DNA of 64,000 nt, taken from contig NZ_JABAGQ010000005.1 in assembly GCF_012844225.1 (NCBI RefSeq), positions 186,001-250,000 on the forward strand. The letters are read 5' to 3'. Origin of the DNA: Rhodococcus sp. 105337 (GTDB lineage Bacteria; Actinomycetota; Actinomycetes; Mycobacteriales; Mycobacteriaceae). Numbering within the stretch: the first letter of the stretch is position 1; each line of letters opens with the position of its first letter. The position numbers and the translations under genes were made by a program. Under the pieces are notes generated by a model that was not told the DNA's origin, ran no database searches, and was given only the letters and a program-made list of their open reading frames with translations. This document shows, one piece after another, positions 8,524 through 28,028 of this stretch.

Positions 8524-9696
8524 TCACCCGGCCAGGAGCGTGTCTCCCGGATAGCCCTCCGGACCGAAGCCCGGTGGAACGACGAACACCGCGGATCCGA
8601 CGGGGGTGATCCACGGATTGAGCGCATCATGCTCGGCGAGGCGCTGCTGTACGGGGACGAACTGACGGTCCACATCGACCTGGTACGCCGCGAACAACAG
8701 CCCTGCGCCGTCGTCGTCGTAGTTGTATCCCCGACGCAGGAATTGCTCGTCGGCGGTCCGTGGCCGCGCCCTCGCCACGTGCGACTCCGGTGGGATCACC
8801 GGAATCCCGTACCGGTCCGTGGCCTCGAAATCGGCGTCGTCATGCTCCTCGGTGCCGGTGAGCGGAGCACCGTTCGACAGGGTCCGGCCCACCGCGAGCT
8901 CTCGTGCGGGCCGGTCGAGTTCGTCCCACGTGTCGAGTTCCATCCGGATCCGGCGAAACACGAGCGAGGTTCCGTCGCGCAGCCACTCCGGTTCACCGGG
9001 GTTCCAGACCTGCCGCCCGAAGTCCGGGCTGCCCGGCGCCGGATTGACGGTGCCGTCCACCTGGCCCATCAGATTCCTCATCGTCATCCCGTCGGGCCTG
9101 GCGCCTACGGCATGCCGGAATCCCCGCTGTACCCAGCGCACGGTGGCCAGCGATCGCACGTTCTTGGTCAAGGTGCGCGTGGCGTGGGAAACCACCACGG
9201 GATCGTCGGCACACACCTGCAGCACCAGGTCCCCACCCGACCACCGGTCTTCGAGGCGATCCACCGCGAACTCGGGAAGGGGACGTAACCACGCCGGACG
9301 CCGGTCGGCCAGTCCCGCGGCGTCGAACACCACCGGTCCGAATCCCACGGTGATCGTGAGCCGAGCCGGATCCACCGCGAGTTCCGGTTCGGTGTCCCCC
9401 AGCGCGGGCCGTCCGGCAGTGAGGCGCCGTATGTCCTCCGCCCACACCTTCATGATTCCGGCCAGGCCCGCGCGGTCGACACCGCTCGCGAGATCGAGTG
9501 CGGCGAACGAGGCGAACGCCTGCGGCGGGGTATCGATCCCGGCTTGGTGACGGCCGTGGGGGTCGATTGTGGCCGCGCCCATGCGCTCGGGCGTCCGGGA
9601 TGCCACGGCTGCGCCACCACCGACCGCCGCGAGACCGGCCGCCCCTACGGCTGCCAGTCCTCCACCGAGTAGATGACGGCGGCTGAGCTCAGCCAC
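8524..9696 (-). CDS. Dye-decolourising (DyP-type) heme peroxidase, Tat-exported
   Basis: 390 residues. The N-terminus carries a twin-arginine signal (SRRHLLGG plus a hydrophobic Ala/Gly stretch to about residue 33), so a folded heme enzyme should be exported. The DyP fingerprint GQVDG (211-215) with catalytic Asp214, the proximal heme ligand His306 in [11 protein letters not shown] and the distal Arg near residue 321 are present. It resembles EfeB-type DyPs. Its start overlaps the end of the upstream copper-chaperone gene by 8 bp, so the two are translationally coupled. The substrate is unknown; roles in peroxide use or heme and iron handling at the cell surface are possible. Confidence 0.9.
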
Positions 9697-10207
9697 CGTG
9701 ACCCGCCCCGGTTGTCGCCGGCTCGTACTCCTCCTGTGCCCCTGCGAAGTCGCGGACCTGCGCGGTGAAGTCCTTCACGGATCCGTCCTCGAATTCCAGG
9801 GAGAAGGTGACGTCACTGCCGGGCCTGATCGGTTCGACGATGTCCATGAGCATCAGGTGGTCGCCGCCGGGAGCGAGGCTGTGGGTGCTTCCGGCTCCGA
9901 TCACGAGGCCGTCGGCCATTTCGCGCATCACCATCGCGCTTCCCCCGTCCGGGGCCATCTCGTGCAATTCGGTGCGGCTCGCGCTCGGGCTCGATACTGC
10001 GACCACATGCAGGTCCGTATCGGCCGTGTTGGACAACTCGGCAAAGGCGCCGGTCATGCCCGAGTCGGCGGCCTTGACCCAGGCATCGGACACCGTCAGC
10101 GCCTCGGCGGCAGTGGGCGGCGCATCGGTCGATCCGCAGGCGGTGAGCACGGCCAGAGCAGCGGCAACTCCCGCAACGGCCACGGTACGAACAGTTTTTC
10201 TCGTCAT
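9689..10207 (-). CDS. PCuAC-family copper chaperone lipoprotein
   Basis: 172 residues. A lipoprotein signal peptide ends in the lipobox LTAC, with Cys24 as the lipidation site. The mature part is a PCuAC (DUF461) domain whose copper-binding pattern is visible: His82 and Met84 (ELHEM), a Met cluster (AMVMREM) and His117 with Met119 (GGDHLMLM). Such proteins carry Cu(I) outside the membrane, often to cytochrome oxidase. Pairing with a DyP peroxidase in an overlapping unit suggests a shared metal or oxidative role. An upstream membrane-protein gene lies 78 bp away on the same strand. Confidence 0.88.
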   Translation of the reverse strand: MTRKTVRTVAVAGVAAALAVLTACGSTDAPPTAAEALTVSDAWVKAADSGMTGAFAELSNTADTDLHVVAVSSPSASRTELHEMAPDGGSAMVMREMADGLVIGAGSTHSLAPGGDHLMLMDIVEPIRPGSDVTFSLEFEDGSVKDFTAQVRDFAGAQEEYEPATTGAGHGG

Positions 10208-10285
10208 CGGTAACTCCAGGAAAGTGGGTTGGCGCGCGAGGGCGCCGACCGCCGTAGGAACGGTGGTCGAGGAGGAAAAAGGAGG

Positions 10286-10789
10286 TCAGACCGTGACGAG
10301 CGGTGGTCCACGGGTCGAGACTCCCGTGGGGAAGACCTGCATCCGGCGCACCGCGGGGCGGTAACCCACGGGGAGTGCGGCCGGAACGGGCAGAGAGGAG
10401 AAGGGAACGCGGATCGCGGCGATGCGGCGCACCGCGTTCAGTGCGAGAGCGCTACCCCGTTCTGCACCGCGTATCAGGGCGGACGCAACGAGGACCGCTG
10501 CCAGGTGAGCAGCAAGCATGCCCGGACCGGGGAGATGAAAGTGGCCGCTGCCCAGCGACAGTGCGATATGACCGAAGACCTGCCCGGCGAGGAGTAGCGG
10601 TACGACCGCCAGCCGGGTACCCGCCGCGACAGCGCCCGCGATCACGGCGACGGAAAGAAGAACCGTGAGGGCGGTAGTGCCCGGATATGCGCCCTCCGCA
10701 ACGGCGTGCGCGACGATCGCGACCACCCCACAGGTGCCACCCACGAAGCCACCGCGCATGCGCGCGAGAAGCTGAGGGTCGGCGGCCAT
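10286..10789 (-). CDS. Multi-pass membrane protein of the copper/DyP cluster
   Basis: 167 residues with four or five hydrophobic helices and a His/Gly-containing loop (GHIALSLGSGHFHLPGPGM) that could bind a metal. The C-terminal 40 residues are polar and Arg/Pro-rich. The ATG at 10789 follows a GGGGG stretch. It is the first gene of the string leading to PCuAC and DyP on the minus strand, so a part in copper handling is likely by context. I recognise no named family. Confidence 0.6.
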   Translation of the reverse strand: MAADPQLLARMRGGFVGGTCGVVAIVAHAVAEGAYPGTTALTVLLSVAVIAGAVAAGTRLAVVPLLLAGQVFGHIALSLGSGHFHLPGPGMLAAHLAAVLVASALIRGAERGSALALNAVRRIAAIRVPFSSLPVPAALPVGYRPAVRRMQVFPTGVSTRGPPLVTV

Positions 10790-10850
10790 GCCCCCGATGA
10801 TACGTCTCGTACTACAGAGCGTCGTATGTGATGCAGCACTGTCGCGCCGG

Positions 10851-10864
10851 GTTTCACGTGAAAC
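10851..10864. promoter_or_regulatory. parS site (ParB binding), outlying
   Basis: GTTTCACGTGAAAC, a perfect 14-bp palindrome identical to the parS core, located 17.5 kb to the left of oriC and far from the main cluster near parA. It lies upstream of the membrane-protein gene and downstream of tRNA-Ala. Confidence 0.9.
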
Positions 10865-10885
10865 GCACGCAACCCGCAAGTACGA

Positions 10886-10918
10886 CGAAACCCACCCCCT
10901 GAACGGAGGTGGGTTTCG
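10886..10918 (-). terminator. Terminator downstream of tRNA-Ala
   Basis: Perfect 11-bp stem CGAAACCCACC/GGTGGGTTTCG with an 11-nt loop, 9 bp past the 3' end of tRNA-Ala. It should end the gyrA-DUF3566-tRNA transcript on the minus strand. Confidence 0.8.
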
Positions 10919-10926
10919 TGTTGCTG

Positions 10927-10999
10927 TGGAGCCTAGGAGATTCGAACTCCTGACATCTGCCTTGCAAAGGCAGCGCTCTACCAACTGAGCTAAGGCCCC
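10927..10999 (-). tRNA. tRNA-Ala (anticodon TGC)
   Basis: A 73-nt cloverleaf can be folded. The acceptor stem has the G3-U70 pair that identifies alanine tRNAs, the anticodon TGC is read at 10966-10964, the T-arm contains GTTCGAATC and the discriminator is A73. CCA is not encoded. Its position matches alaT downstream of gyrA in mycobacteria. Confidence 0.97.
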
Positions 11000-11008
11000 G
11001 TACGCCGA

Positions 11009-11110
11009 CTAGCGACTGGGTACCTCGTGCCACTCGTCCTCACTACGCAGCATGCGAGCAAGTCCGACGACCGCCAGAAAACCAGCTCCCACAGCGATCA
11101 GGAACTTCAT
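11009..11110 (-). CDS. DLW-39 family small protein
   Basis: 33 residues, MKFLIAVGAGFLAVVGLARM followed by an acidic and aromatic end (EDEWHEVPSR), encoded between tRNA-Ile and tRNA-Ala. Short proteins with one N-terminal hydrophobic helix and a conserved D-L-W-type C-terminus occur at exactly this place in many Actinobacteria (DLW-39 family); here the motif reads DEW. An AAAGGCAGC sequence upstream of the ATG may be the ribosome site. The function is unknown. Confidence 0.7.
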   Translation of the reverse strand: MKFLIAVGAGFLAVVGLARMLRSEDEWHEVPSR

Positions 11111-11137
11111 TTCTGGCTGCCTTTCGGGCACGGGGAG

Positions 11138-11211
11138 TGGGCCTAGGAGGACTTGAACCTCCGACCTCTTCGTTATCAGCGAAGCGCTCTAACCGCCTGA
11201 GCTATAGGCCC
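11138..11211 (-). tRNA. tRNA-Ile (anticodon GAT)
   Basis: A 74-nt cloverleaf with the 7-bp acceptor stem GGGCCTA/TAGGCCC, D-arm AGCTCAGGCGGTTAGAGC, anticodon GAT at 11177-11175 and T-arm GGTTCAAGTCC. CCA is not encoded. It is the ileT equivalent, between the DUF3566 gene and the DLW-39 gene. Confidence 0.97.
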
Positions 11212-11285
11212 TCGAACCGGATGGAACACTACCCCACCGACGCCGGATGATTCAAATCGCCTCGACGGGGCAGCATTCCTGCAGG

Positions 11286-12749
11286 TCAGTCCGGGTCTGC
11301 GAGCGTTACCTGAACGCCACCGACGAGGTCGGTGCACAGGTTGTAGATGAACGCTCCGAGGGTCGCGAGAGCGGTCATGAGAACCATGTTGGCCAGGCCG
11401 ATCACGGTCGCGTAGCCGAACACCTGGCCTACCGTGACGAGTCCCTCACTGCCCGCATCGCTCACGATGTCGGTGAACGCGCTGTTGAGCCTGTCCCACA
11501 CGCCCATCCCGGCGAGCACGGCGTAGAGCAGACCGACCGCGATCATCCACACGAAAAACAGCGAAACGGAAATCACGGACGAGATCTTCAGCATCGACCA
11601 CGGGTCGATCCGCCGCACCTGCACCGTGGCGCGTAGTGCATCACCGGTGTCGACACCCGCGGGGGCCGGGGCAATCGCCGTCGGACCCACCTTCGGGGTC
11701 TCCCCCGTTGCCGGCGCGACAGGCGTCGGATGCTTGACGGCGGAGAGATCGGGCAGATCCTTCGCAAGATCCTTGCGCTCGATATGCCGCGTGGGCCCGT
11801 CGATGACCGCGGCTTTCGCCTTCGCCGCAGCACGGTCGTTGCTCGCGCGCTCGTTGGTGGTGCGCGTAGCCGACGCCGAGGAACCGGAGTTACCGGAGTT
11901 CATCGCGGCCGCTGCCGTACCCGTCACGACCGGACGGGTCGACGGTGCCGGATTCTGAGCTGCGGCAGGCTTGCCGGCGGGAGGCTGGCCACCCGTCGAC
12001 GGCCGCGAAGCGGAGGATCCGCCGCCTGCCGCCGGCCCGGACTTGCCGAGACCGGGGCCGACTCCGGGCAGGTTGGTCTGCGGCGTCTTCTGCGGCGAAG
12101 AACCGCCCTGCGCGGTCCCTTGCTGGCCGCGCTGCCACGGCGGGGTCTGGCCACCCGGACGCGCCGTCTGGTTGGCGGGCCTCGCCGAGCGGGACTGATC
12201 GCCGCCCTGCGACGACTGTGCTGTCGCAGCTCCGGACGGTGCCCCGCCCTGGTTCCCGGTGCCCGGATTTCCCGCGCTCTGGTTCCCGGCGCCCTGGTTC
12301 GCCTTGGGAGCCTCCGGTTGCGGCGCTGCCGCAGCCTGACGAGGCTCCTCGCTGCGTACCTGCGACTCGCTGCGCACGGACTCCTCGCGCTGTGCGGGCT
12401 TCGCCGTACCGGCCGCCGGACCCTTACCTTCGGACTTCGGCGTCTCGCGGGCCTTCTCAGGGGCCTTCCCGGAAACCTCCGCCGGCTTCGACGGAGCGGA
12501 TTGCCCAACCGGGCCACCGCTCTGCGGAGATCCGGCAGGCTTGTCCGCCGCCGTGTTCTGGGGCGACCGTTCCTGCTGCGGAGCCCGGTCCTGCGGTGCC
12601 CGGTCCTGCGAGGATGCCCCCTGCGGAGCCGGCCCCTGTGAAGGCGCCGCACCGGATGAAGCGGACGACACCTCCTGCCCATTGCGATCCTCGGGTTTCC
12701 GGCCGGGTTGCCCCTGGCCGTTTCCGTTGGGTCCCTGGGGAGTGCTCAC
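11286..12749 (-). CDS. DUF3566 membrane protein with long disordered N-terminus (Rv0007-like)
   Basis: 487 residues. About 360 N-terminal residues are low-complexity (Gly, Pro, Gln, Ser, Ala). The C-terminal 120 form the DUF3566 domain, starting DPWSMLKISSVISVSLFFVW, with two long membrane helices joined by VWDRLNSAFTDIV. It is the equivalent of M. tuberculosis Rv0007, always just downstream of gyrA. The GTG start directly follows the gyrA stop codon with no spacer and has a strong AAGGAG ribosome site inside the end of gyrA, so the genes are co-transcribed and probably coupled. The function is unknown. Confidence 0.92.
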   Translation of the reverse strand: MSTPQGPNGNGQGQPGRKPEDRNGQEVSSASSGAAPSQGPAPQGASSQDRAPQDRAPQQERSPQNTAADKPAGSPQSGGPVGQSAPSKPAEVSGKAPEKARETPKSEGKGPAAGTAKPAQREESVRSESQVRSEEPRQAAAAPQPEAPKANQGAGNQSAGNPGTGNQGGAPSGAATAQSSQGGDQSRSARPANQTARPGGQTPPWQRGQQGTAQGGSSPQKTPQTNLPGVGPGLGKSGPAAGGGSSASRPSTGGQPPAGKPAAAQNPAPSTRPVVTGTAAAAMNSGNSGSSASATRTTNERASNDRAAAKAKAAVIDGPTRHIERKDLAKDLPDLSAVKHPTPVAPATGETPKVGPTAIAPAPAGVDTGDALRATVQVRRIDPWSMLKISSVISVSLFFVWMIAVGLLYAVLAGMGVWDRLNSAFTDIVSDAGSEGLVTVGQVFGYATVIGLANMVLMTALATLGAFIYNLCTDLVGGVQVTLADPD

Positions 12750-15254
12750 TTACGACTCCTTAGCTCCGGATACGTCTGCGTCGTCCAGCTCGTCGGCATT
12801 GCGGGCGATCGCCAACAGCGTGTCGCCCTCGGCGAGGTTCATCAGGCGCACACCCTTGGTCTGCCGACCAGCCTTGCGCACCTGCTTGGCGACAGTACGG
12901 ATGACACCACCGTTCGAGGTGATCGCGTACAGCTCGTCATCGTCCTCGACGATCCGAGCACCGACCAGGGTGCCACGCCGGCGGTCGTACTGGATGGTCA
13001 AGACACCCTTGCCGCCGCGGCCCTGAACCGGGTAATCCTCCATCGGAGTCCGCTTCGCGTATCCACCGGAGGTCGCGACCAGCAGGTAGGTGCCTTCCTT
13101 GACGACGTTGAGCGACAGCAGGCTGTCCTCACCGTTGAACCGCATGCCCTGGACGCCGGAGGTTGCGCGTCCCATCGGCCGCAGCGCTTCGTCGGTCGCG
13201 GAGAACCGGATGGACTGTCCCAGCTTCGAGACGAGCAGCAGGTCGTCGTCGGCGGAGCACAGAACCGCGCCCACCATTTCGTCGTCCCCGCGCAGGTTGA
13301 TCGCCACGATGCCGCCGCTGCGGTTGGAGTCGAAGTCCGACAGCCGCGACTTCTTCACCAGGCCGTTGCGCGTCGCGAGCACCAGGTACGGCGCGTCCTC
13401 GTAGCTCTGCAGACGGATGACGCCCTGGATCCGCTCGTCGGGCTGGAAGGCCAGCAGGTTCGCGACGTGCTGACCGCGTGCGGTGCGGTTCGCCTCCGGC
13501 AGTTCGTATGCCTTCGCCCGGTAGACGCGGCCCTTCGTCGTGAAGAACAGCAGCCAGTCGTGCGTGGAGGTCACGAAGAAGTGCTTGACGATGTCGTCCT
13601 GCTTGAGCTCGGCGCCCTTGACACCCTTGCCGCCGCGCTTCTGCGACCGGTACAGATCGGTGCGGGTGCGCTTGGCGTAGCCCGTCTCGGTGATCGTGAC
13701 GACCACGTCTTCGCGAGCGATGAGGTCCTCGTCGGTGACGTCACCGTCGGCGGCGACGATGCGTGTCCGGCGATCGTCGCCGTACTTCTCGGCGATCTCC
13801 TTCAGCTCGTCGCGGACGATGGCGCGCTGCCGCTCGGGCTTCTCGAGAATGTCCTTGTAATCATCGATCTCGCGCTCGATCTCTGCGAGGTCGTCGATGA
13901 TCTTCTGACGTTCCAGAGCGGCGAGGCGTCGCAACTGCATCGCGAGAATCGCATCGGCCTGGATCTCGTCGACCTGGAGCAGGTCGATGAGGCCGCCACG
14001 CGCGATGTCGACGGTCTGCGACCTGCGGATGAGTGCGATGACGTCGTCGAGCGCGTCGAGTGCCTTGACGAGGCCGCGCAGGATGTGGGCCCGTTCCTCG
14101 GCCTTGCGCAGCAGGTACCGCGTACGCCGGACGATGACCTCGACCTGGTGCACGACGTACAGCCGGATCATCTGGTCCAGGCGCAGTGTGCGCGGCACAC
14201 CGTCGACGATCGACAGCATGTTGCAGCCGAAGCTCGTCTGCAGCTGGGTGTGCTTGTACAGGTTGTTGAGAACGACCTTCGCGACCGCGTCACGACGGAC
14301 GGTCACGACGATGCGCATGCCCACACGATCCGACGACTCGTCGTGGATGTCGGAGATGCCCGCGATCTTGCCGTCGCGAACCTGTTCGGCGATCGAGGTG
14401 ATGAGGTTGTCCGGGTTGACCATGTACGGCAACTCGGTGATCACGATGGTGGTGCGGCCCTTGGCGTCGTCTTCGATCTCCACGACACCGCGCATCTTCA
14501 CCGAGCCGCGGCCCGTGGTGTACGCGTCGTGGATGCCCTGGGATCCGGTGATCAAGGCTGCGGTCGGGAAGTCGGGTCCCTTGATCCGCTCCATGACCGC
14601 GGCGAGGGTCGTTTCCTCGTCGGCTTCGTAGTTCTCGAGTGCCCAGTAGATCGCCTCGGCGACCTCTCGGAGATTGTGCGGGGGGATGTTGGTCGCCATG
14701 CCCACCGCGATGCCGCCCGAACCGTTGATCAACAGGTTGGGGATACGGCTGGGGAGAACTGTCGGTTCCTGGGTCCGGCCGTCGTAGTTCGGCTGGAAAT
14801 CGACCGTGTCGTGGTCGATATCGCGCAGCATCTCCATCGCGAGCGGGGTGAGCCGGCACTCGGTGTACCGCATGGCGGCCGCACCGTCGTTGCCGCGGGA
14901 ACCGAAGTTGCCCTGTCCGTCGACGAGCGGGTACCGCAACGCCCACGGCTGCGCCAGGCGCACCAGGGTGTCGTAGATCGAAGAGTCGCCGTGCGGGTGG
15001 TAGTTGCCCATCGTCTCGGCAACGGCACGCGCCGACTTCACATAGCCGCGGTCCGGCCTGAACCCGTTGTCGAACATCGCGTACAGCACGCGACGGTGGA
15101 CGGGCTTGAGTCCGTCACGCACGTCGGGCAGAGCACGCCCCACGATCACGCTCATCGCGTAATCGATGTAGCTGTTCTGCATCTCCAGCTGGATGTCGAC
15201 GGGCTCGATGCGGTCGTGCCCCGGCCCCTCCGGAGGCAACGTGGTGTCGGTCAT
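12750..15254 (-). CDS. gyrA: DNA gyrase subunit A
   Basis: 834 residues, full length. The breakage-reunion domain has the catalytic Tyr130 in [11 protein letters not shown]. The quinolone-determining segment reads [12 protein letters not shown] with Ser91 and Asp95, the residues associated with drug sensitivity in most bacteria; mycobacteria have Ala at the first position. The C-terminal beta-pinwheel carries the GyrA-box [10 protein letters not shown] and further blade repeats. With GyrB it introduces negative supercoils. Unusually, it is separated from gyrB by about 7.5 kb carrying a conservon and two MHYT-type genes, so it must have its own promoter in the 178 bp upstream or be read through from the conservon. 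Confidence 0.99.
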
Positions 15255-15432
15255 GAGCTCCTTCTTCTACTCGGCTCGAACGTCCGCCCGCGGTCTTCCG
15301 CCCGGCAGACGTCTCGCAACCACACGAGTCTATAGGTGCAGGTCACCCCACGCCGCGAAGGACAGGCACTTTCCGCTCACGTCTCCGCAAGGGAGAGGTA
15401 GATCACACACGAAAGCGCCGTCCTGCACCACG
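15255..15432. other. gyrA upstream region
   Basis: 178 bp between the MHYT gene stop and gyrA, expected to contain the gyrA promoter. I see no convincing hairpin or repeat. Confidence 0.4.
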
Positions 15433-16224
15433 TCATGCCCCACTTCCCGCGTCGGTCCGGAGATCGATCAGGTCCTCGTGCCGGTCCTTCTCGGCCTCCG
15501 GTGCGAGCACCAGTGCGGTGATCGGCACAGCCAGCACGATGATGCCGAGAATGAACGCGGGGAACAGAAACGACAGGACGCTCATGCCGCTCGGTTCCGG
15601 GGCTCCGGGGTCGACGACCACGTGCACCCCCGCCATTCCGGTGTAGTGCAGCGCGACCACGGCCGAAGCCATGACGAACGCGGCCATCAGACGGATGTGA
15701 ACCCTTTCGGCGCTCCGCGCGAGAGCAAGCGCAAGCGTCGACGCGACCACACCGATGCCCACCGACAGGAGAACGAACCTCGCATCGTGGTCGATGGTGC
15801 CCTGGACCCTCATCGCGGTCATCCCGATGTAATGCATGAGGGTCACCGCGAGACCCATCACCAGGCCGCCGATTCCCGGACGGACCCCGCGCGGAAGCCG
15901 CTCGAGCACCGCGGAGCGGACAGTCACGATCCAGATGCCGAGCATGGTGGTCGCCACCGCCGCCAGCACCGAGAGCACCGTGGGTCCGAGGTGGTAGCGA
16001 ATCACGGTTCCCGGCACGGAGAACCCCATCATGCCGATGAAGTGCATGAGCCAGATCCCCACGCCGCCGATGGCGAGGGACGCCATGGGCAACCACCAGT
16101 TGCCCCCGTTGCGTCCCGAGTCCTCGTGCGACCTGCGAATGCAGGACAGCCCGGTGTAGGACCCGGCTACAGCGGTCGCGTAGGCCAGCACGAATACCCA
16201 CGGCCCCATCGAGAAATGGTGCAC
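15433..16224 (-). CDS. MHYT-domain integral membrane sensor protein
   Basis: 263 residues, seven or so membrane helices. Three copies of the MHYT signature are intact: MHFIGM (60-65), MHYIGM (130-135) and LHYTGM (192-197). In the MHYT family these Met/His residues are proposed to bind copper at the outer membrane face and sense a diatomic gas. No output domain (GGDEF, EAL, kinase) is attached, so the protein must act alone or through partners. The GTG at 16224 lies 9 bp after the stop of the preceding paralogue; an ATG five codons later is an alternative. It is the last gene of the conservon operon. Confidence 0.88.
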   Translation of the reverse strand: MHHFSMGPWVFVLAYATAVAGSYTGLSCIRRSHEDSGRNGGNWWLPMASLAIGGVGIWLMHFIGMMGFSVPGTVIRYHLGPTVLSVLAAVATTMLGIWIVTVRSAVLERLPRGVRPGIGGLVMGLAVTLMHYIGMTAMRVQGTIDHDARFVLLSVGIGVVASTLALALARSAERVHIRLMAAFVMASAVVALHYTGMAGVHVVVDPGAPEPSGMSVLSFLFPAFILGIIVLAVPITALVLAPEAEKDRHEDLIDLRTDAGSGA

Positions 16225-16233
16225 GCCGGACTG

Positions 16234-17028
16234 TTACCGCGTGGGGGTCCGGAACGTCTCCGCGTTCCACTCGTCGGCTTCACGCTCGAGTTGCGCCGCG
16301 ACGCGGTCCGGGGCGAGCAGCACCGCGACAATCGGAACGACCAGCATGAGCAGTCCGGCGACGAACAACGGGAACAGAATCGCGAACACCTCGATGCCGG
16401 CGGGTGCCGGCACCGTCGCGTCGGGAGTCACCCGGATGGACGCCGCAGCGAGAAAGTGCACGACGATCACTGCGGCGCCGCCGAGAACCCCACCGACCAG
16501 CCGCTTGGGCCATGTGTCCGCGTGCTGCACCAGCCACATCAGACCCGCGGCCGTCACGAATGCGACGAGCACGCCGGCGCCGACGAAGATGAGGTTGAAG
16601 GAGACCTCGCCTTGGGTCCGGACCGACCACATGATCACGTAGGGCACAGCGGCGAGTCCGGCGCCGAGTACGAGAGCAGCCGGCTCCGTCCTCGACGAGG
16701 AACCATCCGACGGCGACGCGATCAGCAGAGCCATGAACACCGTCACCAGCGCGAGCAACATCGAGAACACGATGGTGACCAGGTCGTACCGGACGATGCT
16801 GTTCTCCACCGCGAACCCGGCCATCGGCAGGAACTGTGCGAGCCACACACCGACTCCACCGAGGACGAGGCATGCGACCACCAGCCAGAATCGGCGAACG
16901 CGGTCGCTGCCCGCGGTACGAACCTTCCGGACGCTGGTGACCCCGACGAACACCCCGATCGCCGAGGTGAGGTACGCCAGCAAGATCACCCATGGACCCA
17001 TGGTGAAAAGCTGGAGTCCCTCGACCAC
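16234..17028 (-). CDS. Diverged MHYT paralogue, signature lost
   Basis: 264 residues with the same helix layout, the same TMGPWV start, the same VPAPAG/FPLFVAG end and about the same length as the neighbouring MHYT protein, so a tandem duplicate. The three signature positions have decayed to AQFLPM (64-69), VPYVIM (128-133) and VHFLAA (190-195); only one His remains, so metal binding as in MHYT proteins is unlikely. It may form a heteromer with its intact partner. The GTG start shares one base with the cvnD stop (TAGTG), which implies translational coupling to the conservon. Confidence 0.75.
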   Translation of the reverse strand: MVEGLQLFTMGPWVILLAYLTSAIGVFVGVTSVRKVRTAGSDRVRRFWLVVACLVLGGVGVWLAQFLPMAGFAVENSIVRYDLVTIVFSMLLALVTVFMALLIASPSDGSSSRTEPAALVLGAGLAAVPYVIMWSVRTQGEVSFNLIFVGAGVLVAFVTAAGLMWLVQHADTWPKRLVGGVLGGAAVIVVHFLAAASIRVTPDATVPAPAGIEVFAILFPLFVAGLLMLVVPIVAVLLAPDRVAAQLEREADEWNAETFRTPTR

Positions 17029-17615
17029 TAGGGGGCCACCGGCTGGTGCAGCTTCCGCAGCGCGTATTCGGTGACGGTCACCAATGCCTGCTTCGCCGAT
17101 TCACGGGAACGAGCGTCGATCGACACGATCGGGACATCGGGTGAGATCGCCATGGCCTGGCGGATGTCCTCGAGCGGGTAGCGCGGCGCGTCGTCGAACT
17201 CGTTGATCGCGACGATGAACGGAAGGTTCCGCGCCTCGAAGAAGTCCACGGCCGCGAAACTCTCGTCGAGCCGACGCGTGTCGATCAGCACGATCGCACC
17301 GATCGCGCCTCGGATGAGGTCGTCCCACATGAACCAGAATCGGTGCTGGCCCGGAGTACCGAACAGGTACAGCACGAGGTCCTCGGCCAGACTGATACGG
17401 CCGAAGTCCATCGCCACCGTCGTCGTCGCCTTCTGTGGCGTCGCGGTGAGATTGTCGACCCCGTCGCTGGCGTTCGTCACGAGCGCTTCGGTGCGGAGGG
17501 GGACGATTTCGGACACCGCCCCGACCAGCGTGGTCTTTCCGACACCGAAGCCACCCGCGATCACGATCTTGGTCGAGGTCACGCGCTTGGTGGCGCTAGA
17601 GTTCGCGAAGTCCAC
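17028..17615 (-). CDS. cvnD: Conservon small GTPase (CvnD)
   Basis: 195 residues from the GTG at 17615. It is a Ras/Rab-like GTPase of the conservon type: P-loop GGFGVGKTTLV (21-31), switch threonines in TTTVAMDFG, G3 motif FGTPGQ and G4 NEFD in place of NKxD. In Streptomyces the CvnABCD proteins form a membrane-associated complex likened to eukaryotic G-protein coupled systems. The start lies inside the last codons of cvnC (20-bp overlap), and the stop overlaps the start of the next gene. A TTG slightly upstream (17630) is an alternative start. Confidence 0.93.
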   Translation of the reverse strand: MDFANSSATKRVTSTKIVIAGGFGVGKTTLVGAVSEIVPLRTEALVTNASDGVDNLTATPQKATTTVAMDFGRISLAEDLVLYLFGTPGQHRFWFMWDDLIRGAIGAIVLIDTRRLDESFAAVDFFEARNLPFIVAINEFDDAPRYPLEDIRQAMAISPDVPIVSIDARSRESAKQALVTVTEYALRKLHQPVAP

Positions 17616-17970
17616 TGAGGACCCTTTCAATCAGCTCACGACGCTCCGCGTCGCTCGAATCGTCTTTCAGCGTGGCCAGGATCTGTACGTGTCCGGCTTC
17701 GACAAGATCGGCAACGAGGACGCGTGCCACTCCCAGCGGCACGCCCACCCTCGCCGCGATCTCGGCAACCGAGGGCGACTCCTTGCACAACTCCAAGATC
17801 GTGGCGTTGATGTTGTCCAAGTCACGGGCCCGAGGGTCCGTGCCCGGGATCGCCTGGATCAGTGCTTCCAACGCCAGTTCGACCGCAGGACTCGTACGTC
17901 CCGAAGTCAGCGAGTAGGGCCGTACCAGGCTGGGCTGATCCGGCACCGACTCAGGCTTGCGCGATTCCAT
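17596..17970 (-). CDS. cvnC: Conservon DUF742 protein (CvnC)
   Basis: 124 residues from the ATG at 17970 with a GAGGTGG ribosome site; a GTG two codons earlier is possible. DUF742 proteins carry a winged helix-turn-helix-like fold; the segment SVAEIAARVGVPLGVARVLVADL (residues about 67-89) is the characteristic part. It sits between cvnB (13 bp away) and cvnD (overlapping). In conservons CvnC is thought to help relay the signal between the kinase-like protein and the GTPase. Confidence 0.9.
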   Translation of the reverse strand: MESRKPESVPDQPSLVRPYSLTSGRTSPAVELALEALIQAIPGTDPRARDLDNINATILELCKESPSVAEIAARVGVPLGVARVLVADLVEAGHVQILATLKDDSSDAERRELIERVLSGLREL

Positions 17971-17983
17971 GGCCACCTCGACG

Positions 17984-18400
17984 TCAGGACCCCTGGCCGA
18001 CCCGCGGGGTTGCCTCGACCGAGGCACCCACCCGGTCCACCAAGAGCGCCATCTCGTAGCCGACCTGTCCGATATCGCACTCCGACGCGGTCAAAGCCGC
18101 GAGGTGCGAACCGTCACCGACACTCATGAGCAGCAGGTAACCGTGCTGCATCTCGACGACCGACTGGAGAACTCCGCCGCCGTCGAACAACTGCGAGACA
18201 CCGTTGGACAGGCTCGCGAGGCCGGAGGTGACGGCAGCGAGCTGCTCGGCACGGTCGACCGGAAGGTGGGCGCTGGCAGCCATCAGCAGGCCGTCGGCGG
18301 ACACGAGTACGGCATGCGAGACACCTGGAACTTCGCGCGCAAAGTTGGAAACCAACCAGTCCAGTGGACGGGCCACGTCGGATCCATGATCAATGTTCAT
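17984..18400 (-). CDS. cvnB: Conservon roadblock/LC7 protein (CvnB)
   Basis: 138 residues of the roadblock/LC7 fold, with [20 protein letters not shown] at the start and a conserved VSADGLLMA strand. Such proteins bind and regulate small GTPases, here presumably CvnD. The ATG overlaps the cvnA stop in an ATGA arrangement, so translation is coupled. Confidence 0.93.
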
Positions 18401-21400
18401 CGAACTCCCTGTTCATTGTTCTCGCGATTGCTGGTATTCGCCGAGGTGCGACCGTTACGGACGCCCTGCTGGTGGCGACTCAGGTTCGCCCGAATGGCTT
18501 CCGGGTCCCGGCGTCGGATCGTCTTGGGCAGCTCCCCGGTGGCGGGAGCCCTCACCGCACCCGGAACGAGGCGGTGACCCGGCTCGCGCCTCGGAAGGCC
18601 GGCCGTCGTGTGTTCTTCCACCGATACTTCTGCTGCTCGCTGTGCTGCTTCCCATCCTGCGTCGGCAGCCGAACGCCATTCCTTCCTCCGGCGGTCCTCC
18701 GGAAGACTGGTCGGATCGACAAGCCAATCCGACATCATGTTGGAGAAGATCGGCGTGTGCGGTGCGGGCTGCGGTCGGAGCCCGACCGAATCCGGCCTGG
18801 GCTGGAAGAACGACGCTGTCTTCGCGGAGTTCGTCCGGTAGCGATGGCGAGCGGCGTTCTGCGCGTCGCTCTGCGGCGCCACCGATCCGCCGTCGGCAAT
18901 ACTCGCCGACGGGATTGGCGTCGGACCCGCCAGTGCGGCAGCCGAGGGTTCCTGCGCGGTGGCAGGACGCGGCGGAAGACCGGGGGTCGCCCCGGGCCGG
19001 CGACGCGGAAGTCCTCCGGCCGGTGCGCTGTCCGGGCGAGGTTGCGGCCCACCGGCAATGCCGGGCGTAGCACCCGGACGACGCTGCGGCAGCCCGTTCG
19101 GAGCCTCGTGTTGCGGCTGCTGCTGCGACGGCCGGAGATTCTGCGGCGGCTGCACCTGCGAATGCTGTGCCTGCGAATGCTGGGGAGCACGCTCAGGAGT
19201 CGTCTGCTGCGGCGACGGGGCTGCGCCGCGTCCCTGCAGTCCGGGTGTAGCACCGGGCTGACGCTGCGGGAGCCCCGACGGACGGGTTCCCTGCTGCGCA
19301 TCCGGACGCTGCTCCTGCGGGGCAGGTCCCGAACGGACCGGAAGGCCGGGAGTATTACCCGGTTGACGCTGCGGGAGGCTCGAAGCTTCTTGTTCCCGAA
19401 CAGGTTCCGGCTGCTGCCGATGTGTGGACGGCTCGGCCGCCGCGTGGCTGCCGGTCCGTTCGGCCGGACGCTCGTCCCGTGCCATCCGACGATCGCGCTC
19501 GTCCTGCTGAGGACGATCCTGACGAGATTCCTGTCCGGCCTGCGCCTCCCGCTCCTGACGACGAGCGTGTTCGTCCTGCCACACGCGGTCCTGAGCGGGA
19601 CGGTTCTGACCGTGCTGGCCGCGGGGAGGAAGCGCCGAGACGAATGCTGCCGCGGCGTCGGGCTGGATCCTGCGCGGAGCCTGCTGCGGCTGCGGCAGAC
19701 CGGAGGTCGCGCCGGGCTGACGCGTCGGCAGACCGGGAGTCGCGCCGGGCTGACGCGTCGGCAGACCGGGAGTCGCACCCGGCTGACGCGTCGGCAACCC
19801 GGGAGTCGTACCCGGCTGACGGGACGGAAGACCCGGTGCCGCTGCGCCGGGGTTGCGGGTAGGCAGACCCGATGCCGCTGCGCCGGGGTTCCGGGTGGGC
19901 AGACCCGAGTTCGAAGCCGGCTGGTTCGAACCCGGCTGGCGCGGAGGAAGTCCCGGTGCCGCGCCCGGCTGACGCGTCGGCAGACCGGAGCGGTCGCCCT
20001 GGCCTTGCTGAGGCCGGCCCGGAACACCTGATTCCCGGAGTGCGGACAATTCGTGCGCACCCGTCGACTCGCGCGGAACCGCGCCACGAGAGGCCGGCGC
20101 GAAGCCCGCACGCTCGTCGTCGCGGGAACGCTCGTCACGACCCGGTGCGGAATCACGGCGGACACCCTGACCCGGATCTCTTCTCTCCGAAGACCGCTCG
20201 TCCTGCGCGTAGTACGACCGGTCGGGCGCCTCGATGCGGATCGGCTGCGACGGCGGGTTGGACTCCGCGTCGGAACGGTCGTACGCATCGACACGGATCG
20301 GCTGCGACTGCTGATCGGACTGCGGTTGCGGCCGGGGCTGGGGCTGCGACTGCTGATCGGACTGCGGCCGGGGCTGGGGCTTCGGCCGGGGTTGAGGCTG
20401 CGAGGGCGCCTGAGACTGCGACCGCGCCGGTTCGTATTCCTTCTCGCGGGAAGGCGGCGGCAGCTGGGGAGTCTCCTGCGACGACGGCGAGGACAGTGCC
20501 TCGGGTGCAGACTCGGGCTCCGCGTCGATGATTCGCGGTTGCGGACCCGTCTGGGACAACGCGAGCGGCGAGACGAGCAGCACATCCGGGATGTGAACGC
20601 TCGCGGTGATGCCGGGGTTGCGTGCGGTGTCGAAGGTCGGGCGCAGCCGCACGGTGAGGCCGTGACGCTCGGCGAGCCGCGACACCACGAACAGACCCAT
20701 GTGGCGGGCGGTGTCGGGACCGACCGCGCCACCGCTCGTCAGGCGCTCGTTGATGATCTCGAGTTCTTCCGGCGGTATACCGATGCCGCGGTCGGCGATC
20801 TCGACAAGCAGTCCACCGTCGACGGCGCGCGCGAAGCTGAACGTGACGGTGCTGTCGGGCGGGGAGGCCCGCAACGAGTTGTCGACCAATTCTGCGAGGA
20901 GATGCACGATGTCGGTTGCTACCGCACCGCTGAGCGCACCGTCCGGTGTCGAACCGATCTGGACCCGCTGGTAGTCCTCGACTTCGGACATCGCGGCACG
21001 CAGGATGTCGCCGAGCTGTACAGGCGCCGAGTGACCGCGGCGGATGCGCGTGCCGGAGAGGATCAGCAGGTTGTCGCCGTTACGGCGCATACGAGCCGCA
21101 AGGTGATCGAGCCGGAAGAGGCTCTCGAGACGGCTGGGGTCCTTCTCCTCGTACTCGAGACGTTCGATGAGTCCGAGCTGCTGCTCGACGAGGGACTTGC
21201 TTCGCCGGGCCAGCGTCTCGAACATGTCGTTGATCTGGAGACGGAGGTGGGCCTGCTCTCCCGCGAGACGCAGTGCCTGGCCGTGCATGTCGTCCACCGC
21301 GCGCGCCAGCTGACCGATCTCCTCGGTCGTGTGGACGGGAACGCGGGTGAACTCGATGTCCTCGATGCTGTCGCCGACCTTGATGCGGTCGATGGCCTCG

Positions 21401-22416
21401 GGCAGCTCCTGACGGGCAACCTTGAGGGTCCCGTACCGCAGCCGGCGGATGGGGCCGACGAGAGACCGGGACACGAGCAGCGCGAGGACGAGAGCGGCGA
21501 GCAGAGCGGCGAGCACGATCGCGGTGTCGCGCAAGGCCGCTGCACGGGTCTCCGCGGCACGATCCTGAATGGTCGTCGTGATCTGCTGCGCTGCAGCGTC
21601 GATGATGCCGCCGTACACGTCGACGCTGTGCAGCAGCGACGCTCGGACGTTGAGGATCGGGAGCGGGCCTTCGCCGGCAGCCGCGACCATGTCGGTGCGT
21701 TCCTTGACGCCGGACCGCAGGTCGGCAATCTGCGCGTCGGCCATCGGGTACGACCGGGAAAGAAGTTCGAGCATCGCAAGCTCGCCGCCGGACGCGGACA
21801 CGAGCGCGGTGTCGGGCTGTTCCGGGTTCTCGAGGATCGCGAGCACACCGAGCACCTGTCCGAACAGGTATCGCTGCGAGTACCAGGCGTTGACGAGTTG
21901 GTTGCCGTAGTCGAGGATCTCGCGGTCGTCGACACCGTCGAGGACCGCTTCGACGATCCTGTTGAGGTTGTCGCGCACCTCGCTGGTGACGGCGGCGATC
22001 TCAGCGATCGCGACGGGCCCGGCCTGCATCTTGGTGTAAAGCGTTTCGGCGCTGGCGATCGTGCGGTCGAGGTCCGAGACGAGCGCCTCGTCGAACTCGG
22101 GGCTTGCCGCGATCGTCTTCATCGTGACGAACGTTTCCCCGAGTGTGTCCATCTCCTCGGGCGTGATCGTTCCCGCTGCCGCGCTACCGGTCGCCGTCGC
22201 AAACGCCGTCGAGAAGTCGACGATGTCGGGCACGACCGCGACCTGATCGGCCGCGGAGGAGAAGTGCACCGCATTGGACAGTTCGTTCTCGACGCGAAGA
22301 CCACCCAGGACCATCGCCACTGTCACGGGGACAGCGAGGACGGCGGTGACCTTCGTGCGAAGACCCCACCCCTCGATGTTCCACCACCGCTGCCGGGGCG
22401 GCGATTTGTCACTCAT
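18397..22416 (-). CDS. cvnA: Conservon sensor histidine-kinase-like protein (CvnA) with repeat tail
   Basis: 1339 residues. Order: short cytoplasmic start, membrane helix (22-42), extracytoplasmic nitrate/nitrite-sensing (NIT) domain (about 45-290), second helix (297-320), HAMP, a degenerate dimerisation helix with His438 ([12 protein letters not shown]), and a HATPase domain (about 500-612) with N-box [11 protein letters not shown]1 box [12 protein letters not shown] and [15 protein letters not shown]. The remaining 727 residues are disordered, rich in Pro, Gln, Arg and Ser, with thirteen copies of a GLPxRxPG-like octamer. Short GLPRR-type motifs occur in Streptomyces homologues, but this tail is long. 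A GGAAGGAGAG ribosome site is present. First gene of the six-gene operon. Confidence 0.92.
19696..19860. repeat. 33-bp tandem repeats inside cvnA
   Basis: Direct repeats of 33 bp start at 19696, 19729, 19762 and 19795, with a partial fifth from about 19828. They encode the block [11 protein letters not shown] in the CvnA tail. Units 1-3 are nearly identical at the DNA level, which suggests recent expansion by slippage or unequal recombination. Confidence 0.85.
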
Positions 22417-22782
22417 GGATTACAGCTCTCCTTCCACCCCGTTCGCGCCAGGCGACGAGCGCCAACCGGCGCACCGCTCGAAACTGAGTGCGTTTTCGAT
22501 CGATGCAGTCGAACGAGACGTTCCTGGGTGAGGGCACCATAGCGGTACATACAGGGAATACGGAAGGCGCACGCTCGTACGCTCCTGCGAAATGCACCCG
22601 ACCCCCTGTACGGCTGCCACACATGGCGGTGGCCCAATGGACTGTACTAGCGGGTAGCCAGCCAGCGCGACCAGCGTGTCACTGTCACATGTCACATCAT
22701 CGGGACCCCTAATGTGATGTCTCTCACAAAAGGGATCCCGATGTGGTCAGATTTCGCTCAGCGCCCGCCGAGCGGCCCCGCG
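22417..22782. other. Intergenic region between gyrB and cvnA
   Basis: 366 bp downstream of gyrB and upstream of cvnA. Near gyrB there is an imperfect inverted repeat (CACATC-AT-CGGGA at 22693-22705 and TCCCGATGTG at 22736-22745) that may be the gyrB terminator. Just beside it are three TGTCAC direct repeats (about 22677-22697). The remainder should hold the conservon promoter. No credible gene. Confidence 0.5.
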
Positions 22783-25032
<2,250 letters not shown>

Positions 25033-25590
25033 TCACCCATACGTATCGCGAGGACCACGCCCACGGACATGCCGCTCGCCCTTGCGCCAACTCGGCGCCG
25101 TGGGTCCGCTGATGCGCAGTTCCTTCACCACGCCGTGGCCCACGGCCGCGGCGATCTTCGCCAGGATCTGCGATTGCATCATCCGCAACTGGGTTGCCCA
25201 GGCCGTCGACTCGGCCGAGATGTGCAAGATGCCGTCGCGCAGTGTCGTCGGCTGGGCGTGGCCGGCGATGTCCTCGCCCACCACACGAGCCCAACTGCCG
25301 AGGACGGTGCCCTCGGATACGTGCGTCGACCAGCCTCGTTGCTTGGCTACCGCGCCGGTGAGAGCGCCCAGAGGCTGCGGATCCCGGTCGTCGGGTCCGG
25401 GGCCGGACCAGCCGCGGCGACGCCGGCGAGGACGCAGGTTCCCGCGCGACGCGCGACCCTGTCCCACTGCCTTGCCGCTGGCCTTGGCTGCTGCTCGAGC
25501 TTCCTCGAGCGCGCGCCGTGCGAGGTCGACACCCTTCAGTTCCGGTTCGCCGGACGGCGAGCCGTCCTGTGGCCGTGACTCGTCACTCAT
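25033..25590 (-). CDS. dciA: DciA family replicative helicase operator (DUF721)
   Basis: 185 residues. The N-terminal half is basic and disordered; the C-terminal half is the DUF721/DciA domain ([20 protein letters not shown], then [17 protein letters not shown]). DciA is the ancestral helicase-loading factor that works with DnaB in bacteria lacking DnaC/DnaI; the equivalent here is M. tuberculosis Rv0004. Its ATG overlaps the recF stop (ATGAGTGA), so the two are coupled. Confidence 0.93.
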
Positions 25591-26818
25591 CGAACCTCCC
25601 GACCGATTGTGCGTCTGCCCATTGCACCGATCCCAGCACAGAGATCCGACCGTTGTCGGTGTCTTCCACCTCCACGGGGAACCGCGCGCCGCTCAACTCG
25701 TCCGGCACGTCCTCGGGAACAGCCGCGGTGATCAGTACCTGCTCCGCGGTCGCAGCGACCTCCGCGAGCGCAGCGCGGCGACGGCGATCGAGTTCGGCGA
25801 AGACGTCGTCGAGCAACAGCACGGGGTCGGTACCGTCCGTACGGAGCAGCGCGAAGGCGCCGAGCCGGAGCGCGAGCGCGAACGACCACGATTCGCCGTG
25901 ACTCGCGTATCCCTTCGCACCGTGCTCGCCGAGGATCAACTCGAGATCGTCGCGGTGCGGGCCCACCAGGCACACACCGCGTTCGATCTCCTTGTTCCGC
26001 GCTTCTGCCAGACGGTGCAGGAACACGGTCTCGAGGAATTCACGGTCGTCCGGTGCGGGAACGCGGGCCGGATCGGAGAACTCGTCGGGCAGTGCATCAC
26101 CGAGGCTGCTGCGATATCGCAGGCGGGCGGGACGGGATTCGGGCGCGATCGAGCGGTATGCCTCCGACACGTGCGGGGCCAGAGCGTGCAACAACTCGAG
26201 CCGGGCCGCAAGCAACTCCGATCCGTGTGCGGCGAGGTGCCCGTCCCAGACATCGAGGGTCGCCAGCGCACTCGTACCGTCGGTCGAGCGCGTGCCCCGG
26301 CGCAGCGCGCCTCCGGCTGTCTTGAGCAGCGCCGAACGCTGCCGCAGCACCTTGTCGTAGTCGGCCCGGACGCCGCTCATCCGGGGATAACGGGTGGTGA
26401 GAAGTTCGTCGAGGTACCGGCGCCGGTCACCGGGGTCACCGCGGACGAGCGACAGGTCTTCGGGCGCGAACAACACGGTCCTCAGAATCCCCAGAATCTC
26501 CCTGGGGCGACGAGCCGGCGACTGGTTGATGCGGGCGCGATTCGGCTTGCCCTCGTTGATCTCGATGTCGATGCCCAGCTCACGACCCGCATTGACGACC
26601 TGCGCACCTGTGAATGCACGTGTCGTACCGGCGCGCAGCAGCGGTGTGTCGGACGCGACCCGGTGCGACGACAGGGTCGACAGGTATCCGAGAGCCTCGA
26701 GCAAGTTCGTCTTGCCGTGTCCGTTGCGGCCGACGAAGACCGTCGCTCCTGGCGACAGCTCCACGGAGACGGCTTCCCAGGAGCGGAAGTCGCGCAACGA
26801 GAAGGTGCGAACGTACAC
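25583..26818 (-). CDS. recF: DNA replication and repair protein RecF
   Basis: 411 residues, a little longer than usual. Walker [14 protein letters not shown] (30-42), the ABC signature region ([18 protein letters not shown]) and Walker [15 protein letters not shown] are present. RecF helps load RecA at gaps via RecOR. GTG start at 26818, 25 bp after dnaN. There is no gnd gene between dnaN and recF, as in M. tuberculosis but unlike M. smegmatis. Confidence 0.97.
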
Positions 26819-26843
26819 GGACCGTCCAAATCTGGCGCGCCGG

Positions 26844-28028
26844 TCAGCCCGGCAGGCGCACCGGCATCAGCAGATAGGTGTAATCGCTCTCGGGAGCAGC
26901 GAAGGTACCCGAAGCGTCGGGCGACGGTTCTTCCTCGAGTGCGGGCCGGAGCACGGCGGGCCGGCTCGCGGTGGTGAACCCGAACGAGACCTTGTCGGTG
27001 TGCAGCGACGTCAAGCCGTCGAGCAGATAACCGGGGTTGAACGCGATGACCAGCGGTTCACCGTAGAACTCGGCGGGATGTGATTCTTCGGCGCGACCCG
27101 CATCGTCGCCACCGGCGGACAGGAGCACGCCGCCGTCGGTGAACTCGAGTCGGACCTGAGCGCCACGTTCGGCAACGAGCGCGACACGCTTGATCGCCTC
27201 GACGAGCGGAGCGATCTCGACGGTGGCCATCGCTGTGTGCTCGTTCGGCAGCAGCTGGCGGAACTTGGGGAATTCGGCATCGAGGAGCCGCGTGGTGGTG
27301 CGGCGGCCGTCGGCGACGATGCCGAGCAGACCTTCGGCGCCCACCGACGAACCGCTACCCAGTGCGAGCTGCACGGGCGAATTCGACGACCCGCCAACGG
27401 TTTTCGCAGCCTCCGACAGAGTCTTCGCCGGTACGAGCACTGCGGCCGTGGTGGTGTCCGTGGTCGGCATCCACTCGAGTTTGCGCACCGCGAGGCGGAA
27501 CCGGTCGGTGGCGGCGAGCACCACGTCGGTGCCGTCGATCTCGACCCGGATGCCGGTGAGCATCGGCAAGGTGTCGTCCCTGCCCGCTGCCACCGCGACC
27601 TGGCTGATGGCCTCGGCGAACAGGTCGCCGGCGAGCGAGCCGGTCTGCTGGGGCAGCTCGGGGAGCTGGGGATAATCCTCGACGGGCATCGTCGGGAGCG
27701 AGAACTTTGCGCTGCCGCACGTGATGAGTACACGCGTGCCGTCGAGAACCACGTCGACCGGCTTGTTGGGCAGCGAACGGGTGATGTCGGCGAGCAACTT
27801 GCCCGACACGAGGGCCTGGCCGGTGGTGATGACTTCGGCCGCCACGTGGACCTGCGCCGAGACCTCGTAGTCGAATCCCGACACGGTCAGGCCCTGCTCT
27901 TCGGCTCCGAGGAGGACACCGCCGAGGACGGGCACCGGAGGTCGTGACGGCAGACTCCGGGCAACCCACGCGACAGAGTCGGCGAAGTCCTCGCGAGCAA
28001 CACGAAACTTCATGCTTCCAAGCTCCAT
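26844..28028 (-). CDS. dnaN: DNA polymerase III beta subunit (sliding clamp)
   Basis: 394 residues from the ATG at 28028 ([10 protein letters not shown]); an internal ATG at 28013 is an alternative with its own GGAG. The three repeated clamp domains are recognisable, with [45 protein letters not shown] and the final LLMPVRLPG. The ring tethers polymerase and repair proteins to DNA. It is transcribed away from oriC, which occupies the 508 bp between its start and the dnaA stop. Confidence 0.98.

Follow-up and report, generated by a model that had tools for sequence, protein, structure and literature searches.

Why does a conservon followed by two MHYT-type membrane genes lie between gyrB and gyrA? 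The question is raised by a 64,000-nucleotide stretch of Rhodococcus sp. 105337 (NZ_JABAGQ010000005.1, positions 186,001 to 250,000; part of contig C30 in a 4.46-Mb genome), hereafter called the window. Conservons are widespread in actinobacteria, but few of their inputs and outputs have been established. An MHYT protein in the accessory slot of many conservons provides a concrete candidate input, copper or gas, and the gyrase locus raises the testable question of a membrane GTPase switch controlling supercoiling. The explanation that we favor, and to which we give an even chance, is that a conservon with MHYT accessory subunits entered the gyrB-gyrA interval in an ancestor and has been kept since. 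The system may be functionally linked to gyrase. The safest statement is that this is a conservon with a class of accessory protein absent from the papers searched, inherited in the gyrase locus.

Reading frames and Pfam matches gave the minus-strand order gyrB, cvnA, cvnB, cvnC, cvnD, m1, m2, gyrA, as an earlier note on this DNA had described. cvnA (18397-22416) encodes HAMP and HATPase_c domains and a long C-terminal tail with many LPxR repeats, cvnB (17984-18400) a roadblock/LC7 protein (Robl_LC7), cvnC (17596-17970, its start taken at ATG) a DUF742 protein, and cvnD (17028-17630 from a TTG start at 17630, or from GTG at 17615) a small GTPase (ATP_bind_1). As direct neighbors in conservon order with the expected domains, these four genes form a conservon, or actinobacterial G-protein system (AGPS). 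They are followed by m1 (16234-17028), a first-slot MHYT protein with degenerate motifs and the C-terminal tail PDRxxAx[LF][ED], and m2 (15433-16224), an MHYT protein with three intact motifs. The junctions were read directly in the sequence and agree with the earlier description: cvnA and cvnB overlap in ATGA, cvnC and cvnD overlap by 20 bp provided that cvnD starts at GTG 17615, cvnD and m1 have one base in common, and 9 bp separate m1 from m2. With 13 bp between cvnB and cvnC, the cvn and MHYT genes are the single tight block that had been claimed; 366 bp separate gyrB from cvnA, and 178 bp separate m2 from gyrA. A promoter and terminator between cvnD and the MHYT pair would have spoken for separate units; because cvnD and m1 share a base, the window has no room for them.

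The arrangement is old and conserved in Rhodococcus-type bacteria and is no one-off. The same gene order was found in 8 of 12 named Rhodococcus loci, which are all those that hold a conservon, the remaining 4 being unlinked MHYT copies, and it was found in further genomes of the genus. The named relatives that carry the locus belong to Rhodococcus and include R. coprophilus, R. gordoniae, R. ruber, R. aetherivorans, R. phenolicus, and R. yananensis. All 18 genomes of the genus that were searched gave one CvnD match each at E ≤ 1e-20, with gyrB on the same contig in 17; in the fragmented assembly G005, gyrA adjoins the conservon and gyrB was not found at threshold. One to three MHYT genes follow cvnD in the genus, and every one of the 18 genomes has at least one within about 450 bp of cvnD. 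The earlier note held that MHYT genes found mostly without a conservon in relatives would speak against one system. By eye, at least one further MHYT gene lies elsewhere in 10 of the 18 genomes, yet a linked copy is present in all 18. In the named loci, identity to the window proteins is 91 to 100% for CvnB, CvnC, and CvnD, 47 to 81% for m1, and 51 to 75% for m2.

Beyond the genus, CvnD was matched at E ≤ 1e-30 in 116 of 251 genomes of the family and in 15 of 30 genera. The survey loci were drawn from the 150 higher-scoring matches listed for the family, plus a few from the genus search, and 151 relatives' conservons were counted after L145 and L228, from which only cvnD was recovered, had been dropped. 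Directly after cvnD, an MHYT gene stands in 77, an MfpA-like gene in 20, and neither in 54, although these rows are related and their counts are not independent, which tempers them as support for our explanation. Two of the conservons scored as neither, L149 and L219, have a same-strand MHYT gene some 5.3 kb upstream (before cvnA in L149). The MfpA profile was built from six open reading frames (ORFs) of genus-level group g50 itself and thus detects near relatives only. The linkage of MHYT to cvnD seen in the window is therefore recurrent. It is less tightly bound to the gyrase locus, where 31 of the 77 cvnD-MHYT cases lie, the other 46 being elsewhere. Forty of the 151 conservons, in this genus and three further groups of genus rank, lie beside gyrA and/or gyrB (g1, 17; g45, 12; g10, 6; g43, 5), in three of which (L102, L126, and L198) gyrA and gyrB were not both seen. 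The earlier statement that gyrB and gyrA are normally adjacent held in 17 of 20 outgroup regions (28 to 248 bp apart by hit ends) and failed in the other three (L178, L179, and L187), whose gaps of 1.6 to 3.2 kb contain no match to the Cvn or MHYT proteins of the window. Literature searches of open-licence PMC papers found no paper on a conservon with an MHYT accessory.

How the gyr-locus conservons are related was judged from a CvnB+C+D tree of 152 rows; this and our other trees are quick searches, except for the approximately unbiased (AU) test analysis, which used 62 rows after thinning. Clade I (71 rows, support 85) has MHYT in the slot after cvnD in 45 rows and an MfpA-like gene in 20. 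Clade II (75 rows, support 93) includes all 41 gyr-locus rows, the window among them. Four divergent g44 rows and two rows of another family fall outside both. MHYT follows cvnD in both main clades. The gyr placement may have arisen once: constraining the gyr rows to one clade was not rejected (AU p 0.128), although the node uniting all of them has a support of only 30. We suggest that the conservon was inserted between gyrB and gyrA in the ancestor of several Rhodococcus-type genera and then retained.

The closest known comparison is the mfp conservon (mfpEDCB-mfpA) of Mycobacterium. It has the same core, its GTPase gene is likewise followed immediately by an additional gene, and window CvnB matched Rv3364c (MfpD; 9hef) among PDB sequences at E 9e-55. 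From its MfpA-like genes, g50 would be Mycobacterium: 20 of 22 g50 conservons carry an MfpA-like protein in the slot after cvnD, which in clade I is the position occupied by the MHYT gene, and the g50 conservon copies fetched have no gyrA or gyrB nearby. The gyrase connection is functional in the mfp conservon and positional here. The window locus differs from mfp in belonging to the other CvnBCD clade and in having an MHYT gene, not a pentapeptide gene, as its extra gene; Pfam found no pentapeptide (PF00805) protein among the eight proteins of the block. The genome of the window (G000) has four PF00805 matches, at least one of them on contig C7 among the matches listed. An exclusive clade of gyr-locus and mfp conservons, as direct orthology would require, was rejected by the trees and the AU test (p 5e-6). 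Thus, the two are related but are not direct orthologs. The core order of kinase-like, roadblock, DUF742, and MglA-type GTPase genes is also that of cvn8 and cvn9 of Streptomyces coelicolor, from which the present loci differ in the one to three MHYT membrane genes after the core and in the gyrB-gyrA placement. By analogy with the Mfp proteins, CvnB and CvnC would control, at the membrane, whether CvnD carries GTP.

The two MHYT proteins of the window are not alike. Pfam PF03707 matches m1 at 41.8 bits (cut-off, 21) and m2, a hydrophobic protein of 263 residues, at 132 bits over three stretches. The m2 motifs MHFIGM, MHYIGM, and LHYTGM keep all three His and all three Met, whereas the m1 counterparts AQFLPM, VPYVIM, and VHFLAA keep one of three His and two of three Met. 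Pfam found no domain besides MHYT in either protein, and hence no GAF domain as in CvnF, and m2 has no PDB relative at E ≤ 1. We compared 120 MHYT proteins from loci up to L176, later-fetched loci being left out. First-slot proteins of the gyr locus (g1, g45, and g43) have lost at least one motif His in 20 of 26 cases. The three His are retained in 16 of 19 other conservon-linked MHYT proteins and in 51 of 54 without cvnD in the fetched stretch. The idea that all gyr-locus MHYT proteins lost the metal site was rejected, as three His and three Met are intact in 21 of 21 later-slot proteins and in 2 of 26 first-slot proteins. All three motif His are gone from a pair of conservon-linked g44 MHYT proteins in clade I (L166 and L168).

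First-slot proteins form one group (support 89) in an MHYT tree of 93 of the 120 rows, from which 27 unlinked rows, mostly of other phyla, were left out. The tail PDRxxAx[LF][ED] is present in 26 of 26 first-slot gyr-locus proteins and in 0 of 21 later-slot, 0 of 19 other linked, and 0 of 54 unlinked proteins, a distinction weakened by the motif having been defined on the same sequences in which it was counted. The ratio of nonsynonymous to synonymous divergence (dN/dS) of m1 was 0.21, 0.33, and 0.35 in three comparisons, so m1 is under purifying selection and is no pseudogene; the values are 0.25 to 0.44 for m2 and at most 0.054 for CvnB, CvnC, and CvnD. Because m1 keeps only one of three motif His, it is unlikely to be the second copper or gas input that the earlier note had made of it. 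The known MHYT sensor CoxC of Afipia carboxidovorans is reported to sense CO in a copper-dependent way, with an MHYT domain of seven predicted transmembrane segments and a C-terminal domain that binds DNA (PMC11347149). It resembles m2 in having three MHYT motifs in a hydrophobic protein. Unlike CoxC, m1 and m2 have no fused output domain, and m1 lacks most motif residues. The CoxC C-terminal domain must be cytoplasmic, because it binds DNA, and by analogy the m1 tail would be cytosolic. We propose that m2, like CoxC, binds copper together with a diatomic gas and so provides a gas or redox input, and that m1, no longer binding copper, may have swapped sensing for docking and now acts at the membrane as a dock or relay by means of its cytosolic tail.

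Two other roles for the MHYT proteins have to be weighed at this point. They could be passengers, co-transcribed with the conservon, making no functional contact with it and signaling alone. The unlinked copies in 10 of 18 genomes of the genus fit this, as do the 54 of 151 conservons with neither MHYT nor MfpA after cvnD and the lack of any cvn match in 47 of 48 non-Rhodococcus MHYT loci, as judged from fetched stretches of which some were short. We nevertheless consider it unlikely. Linkage in the same slot recurs in several genus-level groups and in both main clades, first-slot proteins retain a common tail while losing the sensor site, and the linked MHYT proteins of the family form one group with the unlinked ones of the genus, apart from solo MHYT proteins of Streptomyces. 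Linkage has apparently arisen independently in Streptomyces aculeolatus (L050:9992-15404), where a long cvnA frame is preceded at 74 bp by an MHYT gene; it looks independent because this MHYT protein groups with the Streptomyces solo proteins.

The other role is that of a GTPase effector like MfpA in Mycobacterium, with GTP-bound CvnD binding the cytosolic tail of m1 and altering a membrane activity. The slot is the same as that of the MfpA-like gene of g50, and m1 combines the common tail with a decayed sensor site. To our knowledge, however, no effector activity of MHYT-only proteins has been described, and m2 has an intact sensor site. Slot identity is also a weak argument, because the accessory protein CvnF8 is reported to act on the kinase (PMC13343842). 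An effector role therefore appears quite improbable to us, and we keep to the reading of the MHYT proteins as accessory subunits.

If m2 is one input, what does CvnA contribute? HAMP and HATPase_c domains were found by Pfam in the window protein and in 40 of 40 CvnA. By hydropathy, CvnA of the relatives has two predicted transmembrane helices about 275 residues apart, with about 255 residues lying between them, with a few exceptions (among them L112, L164, L235, and L265-L268), and we suggest that CvnA receives an extracytoplasmic signal. The earlier note had assigned a NIT domain to CvnA. Pfam does not bear this out: neither the window CvnA nor those of 8 Rhodococcus relatives gave a NIT match at E ≤ 10, and NIT is not among the 25 families listed, of 31 in all, for the 40 CvnA at E ≤ 1. 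A NIT domain occurs in many conservons, not in all, and is not required. LPxR repeats number 10 to 14 in the C-terminal part of CvnA in relatives from the genus, and several are visible in the window protein; elsewhere we counted 16 to 46 in one g44 clade and mostly 1 to 8 in the rest, with 13 in L135. The LPxR motif has been reported in the C-terminal extension of CvnA (PMC4316618). Accessory proteins CvnE and CvnF are reported to go with CvnA that lack NIT (PMC13343842). The present loci resemble those systems in that an accessory gene adjoins the core and CvnA has no Pfam NIT domain. They differ in that the accessory is an MHYT membrane protein here and a GAF protein there, that CvnA here retains the stretch between its transmembrane helices, and that the family's CvnA without MHYT lack NIT as well. 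The two helices are the same in CvnA with and without MHYT, with few exceptions. That MHYT replaces a lost CvnA sensor is thus unsupported, and the CvnE/CvnF rule fails to explain the MHYT genes, because MHYT-bearing and MHYT-less CvnA are alike. The earlier proposal of one signaling system with two inputs is accordingly upheld as to its tight block and recurrent linkage, and not as to the NIT domain or m1 as an input.

We then considered how the block is expressed. In the m2-gyrA gap lies a conserved 20-bp element, TGACCTGCACCTATAGACTC (15326-15345, minus strand), 91 bp upstream of the gyrA start and the sole copy in the genome within 3 mismatches; the gyrA-upstream box is TATAGACT. The element precedes gyrA in g1, g45, g43, and g10 loci, with variable flanks. 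Its 19-nt form was found at ≤1 mismatch in 41 of 251 family genomes, 40 of which have a gyr-locus conservon (g1, 17; g45, 12; g43, 6; g10, 5). In the other, G066, a close relative of these conservons lies elsewhere in the genome; its gyrB-gyrA gap of 461 bp has no conservon, yet the element stands 94 bp before gyrA. G112, the sole gyr-locus genome missed, has the element with one inserted base. G115, G191, and G226 have a match at 2 mismatches only; as a control, the backwards pattern at up to 2 mismatches matched five genomes. No element was found within 5 mismatches in 21 outgroup gyr regions or within 4 mismatches in 17 uninserted gyr loci (9 g45, 6 g10, 1 g16, and 1 g48), whose gyrB-gyrA gaps are 46 to 109 bp. 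The element is likely a gyrA promoter brought by, or made necessary by, the insertion, or possibly an operator. A second copy with 1 mismatch lies away from gyrA in G220 (L272:6925, contig C3).

Upstream of cvnA, the gap contains a perfect CRP/GlxR-type palindrome, TGTGA-N6-TCACA (22713-22728, no strand assigned). It lies about 300 bp before cvnA in the window, as in g1 and g43, and 161 to 304 bp before it in g10. At ≤1 mismatch it is present in 20 of 38 gyrB-cvnA gaps, against a mean of 0.16 in mononucleotide shuffles of each gap, the gaps being related sequences and not independent draws. Across the window the pattern is mildly enriched (4 against 1.2 expected; 5 of 100 shuffles as high). 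Terminator-like sites in 15200-22850 number three, about as many as in shuffles, and the only structured RNAs above Rfam cut-offs in 9000-28000 are two tRNAs. Because separate signals precede cvnA and gyrA, the locus looks like three transcription units rather than one gyrase operon. The conservon operon would have a promoter of its own in the gyrB-cvnA gap, probably controlled by CRP/cAMP, and a conserved promoter would likewise serve gyrA separately.

Does the position reflect a function? The earlier note had suggested that the gyrase locus could link the system to supercoiling or growth state. This is weakened by the 46 of 77 cvnD-MHYT pairs elsewhere, by the gyrA element, and by the CRP-type site before cvnA. 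Position by itself says little, since genes near the replication origin tend to keep their order in any case. The appeal of a gyrase role comes from the mfp conservon, which reportedly acts on gyrase by way of MfpA; this protein has been reported to bind GTP-bound MfpB (PMC4316618), and to bind both the conservon GTPase and gyrase (PMC13015309, PMC4316618). The gyr-locus conservon could likewise act on gyrase, either by its GTPase or MHYT proteins modulating the enzyme or by its output controlling gyrA through the 20-bp element. The element and the arrangement do co-occur, in 40 of 41 element genomes and with a related conservon in the other, and uninserted loci and outgroups lack the element. 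However, shared ancestry near the origin accounts for this co-occurrence equally well, and with about 7.5 kb between gyrB and gyrA, gyrA needs its own promoter. The gyrase link of mfp was not inherited by direct orthology, because the exclusive gyr and mfp clade is rejected, and no MfpA-like gene follows cvnD in the window. A gyrase-control role, which builds on position and the gyrA element, is attractive, and we regard action on gyrase as rather unlikely. More specifically, a membrane G-protein switch that takes gas or redox signals through m2, relays them through the metal-less m1, and sets the level or activity of gyrase through the 20-bp element or by contact is very doubtful. If it were true, conservons would have come to control gyrase on at least two occasions, by way of MfpA in Mycobacterium and by genomic placement in Rhodococcus. 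In our preferred explanation, the gyrase address would be an inherited location, and the data need no output onto gyrase.

Several observations weigh against that explanation. MHYT is missing from 6 of 6 g10 and 3 of 5 g43 gyr-locus conservons and is therefore dispensable, and CvnA is similar whether or not MHYT is present. In the genus, 3 of 18 genomes (G001, G005, and G011) have no m1 or just a fragment of it, and the G007 locus retains only an m1-type gene. Six of 26 first-slot proteins have all three His, and two of these 26 have all three His and Met. Loosened versions of the tail motif also match a few other MHYT proteins; a different form, APxRxxxxLE, is present in 20 of 26 first-slot, 3 of 21 later-slot, 3 of 19 other linked, and 0 of 54 unlinked proteins. 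The promoter reading of the gyrA element draws on conservation, and a scan for sigma-70-type promoters in 15200-22850 gave none. At ≤1 mismatch, none of the 10 gaps of g45 has the palindrome, and several of those of g1 lack it too. The same variety offers natural comparisons, with intact MHYT, with metal-less MHYT, without MHYT, and with MfpA instead, and one conserved gyrA element for testing.

The flanking genes are gyrB (22783-24870, minus strand; Pfam DNA_gyraseB and Toprim, NCBIfam TIGR01059), encoding DNA gyrase subunit B, and gyrA (12750-15254, minus strand; Pfam and NCBIfam), encoding subunit A. In L044 (R. ruber), L177, L194, and L289, the gyrA match is interrupted near residue 131 by 0.5 to 1.3 kb of inserted sequence, perhaps an intein. 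Four g44 loci (L140, L141, L148, and L167) have one conservon copy followed by an ORF of about 510 to 580 codons. Between the window and R. coprophilus (L037), synonymous divergence (dS) is 0.08 to 0.15 for cvnB, cvnC, and cvnD and 0.31 to 0.61 for the other genes of the block, as if cvnB-cvnD had been exchanged recently.

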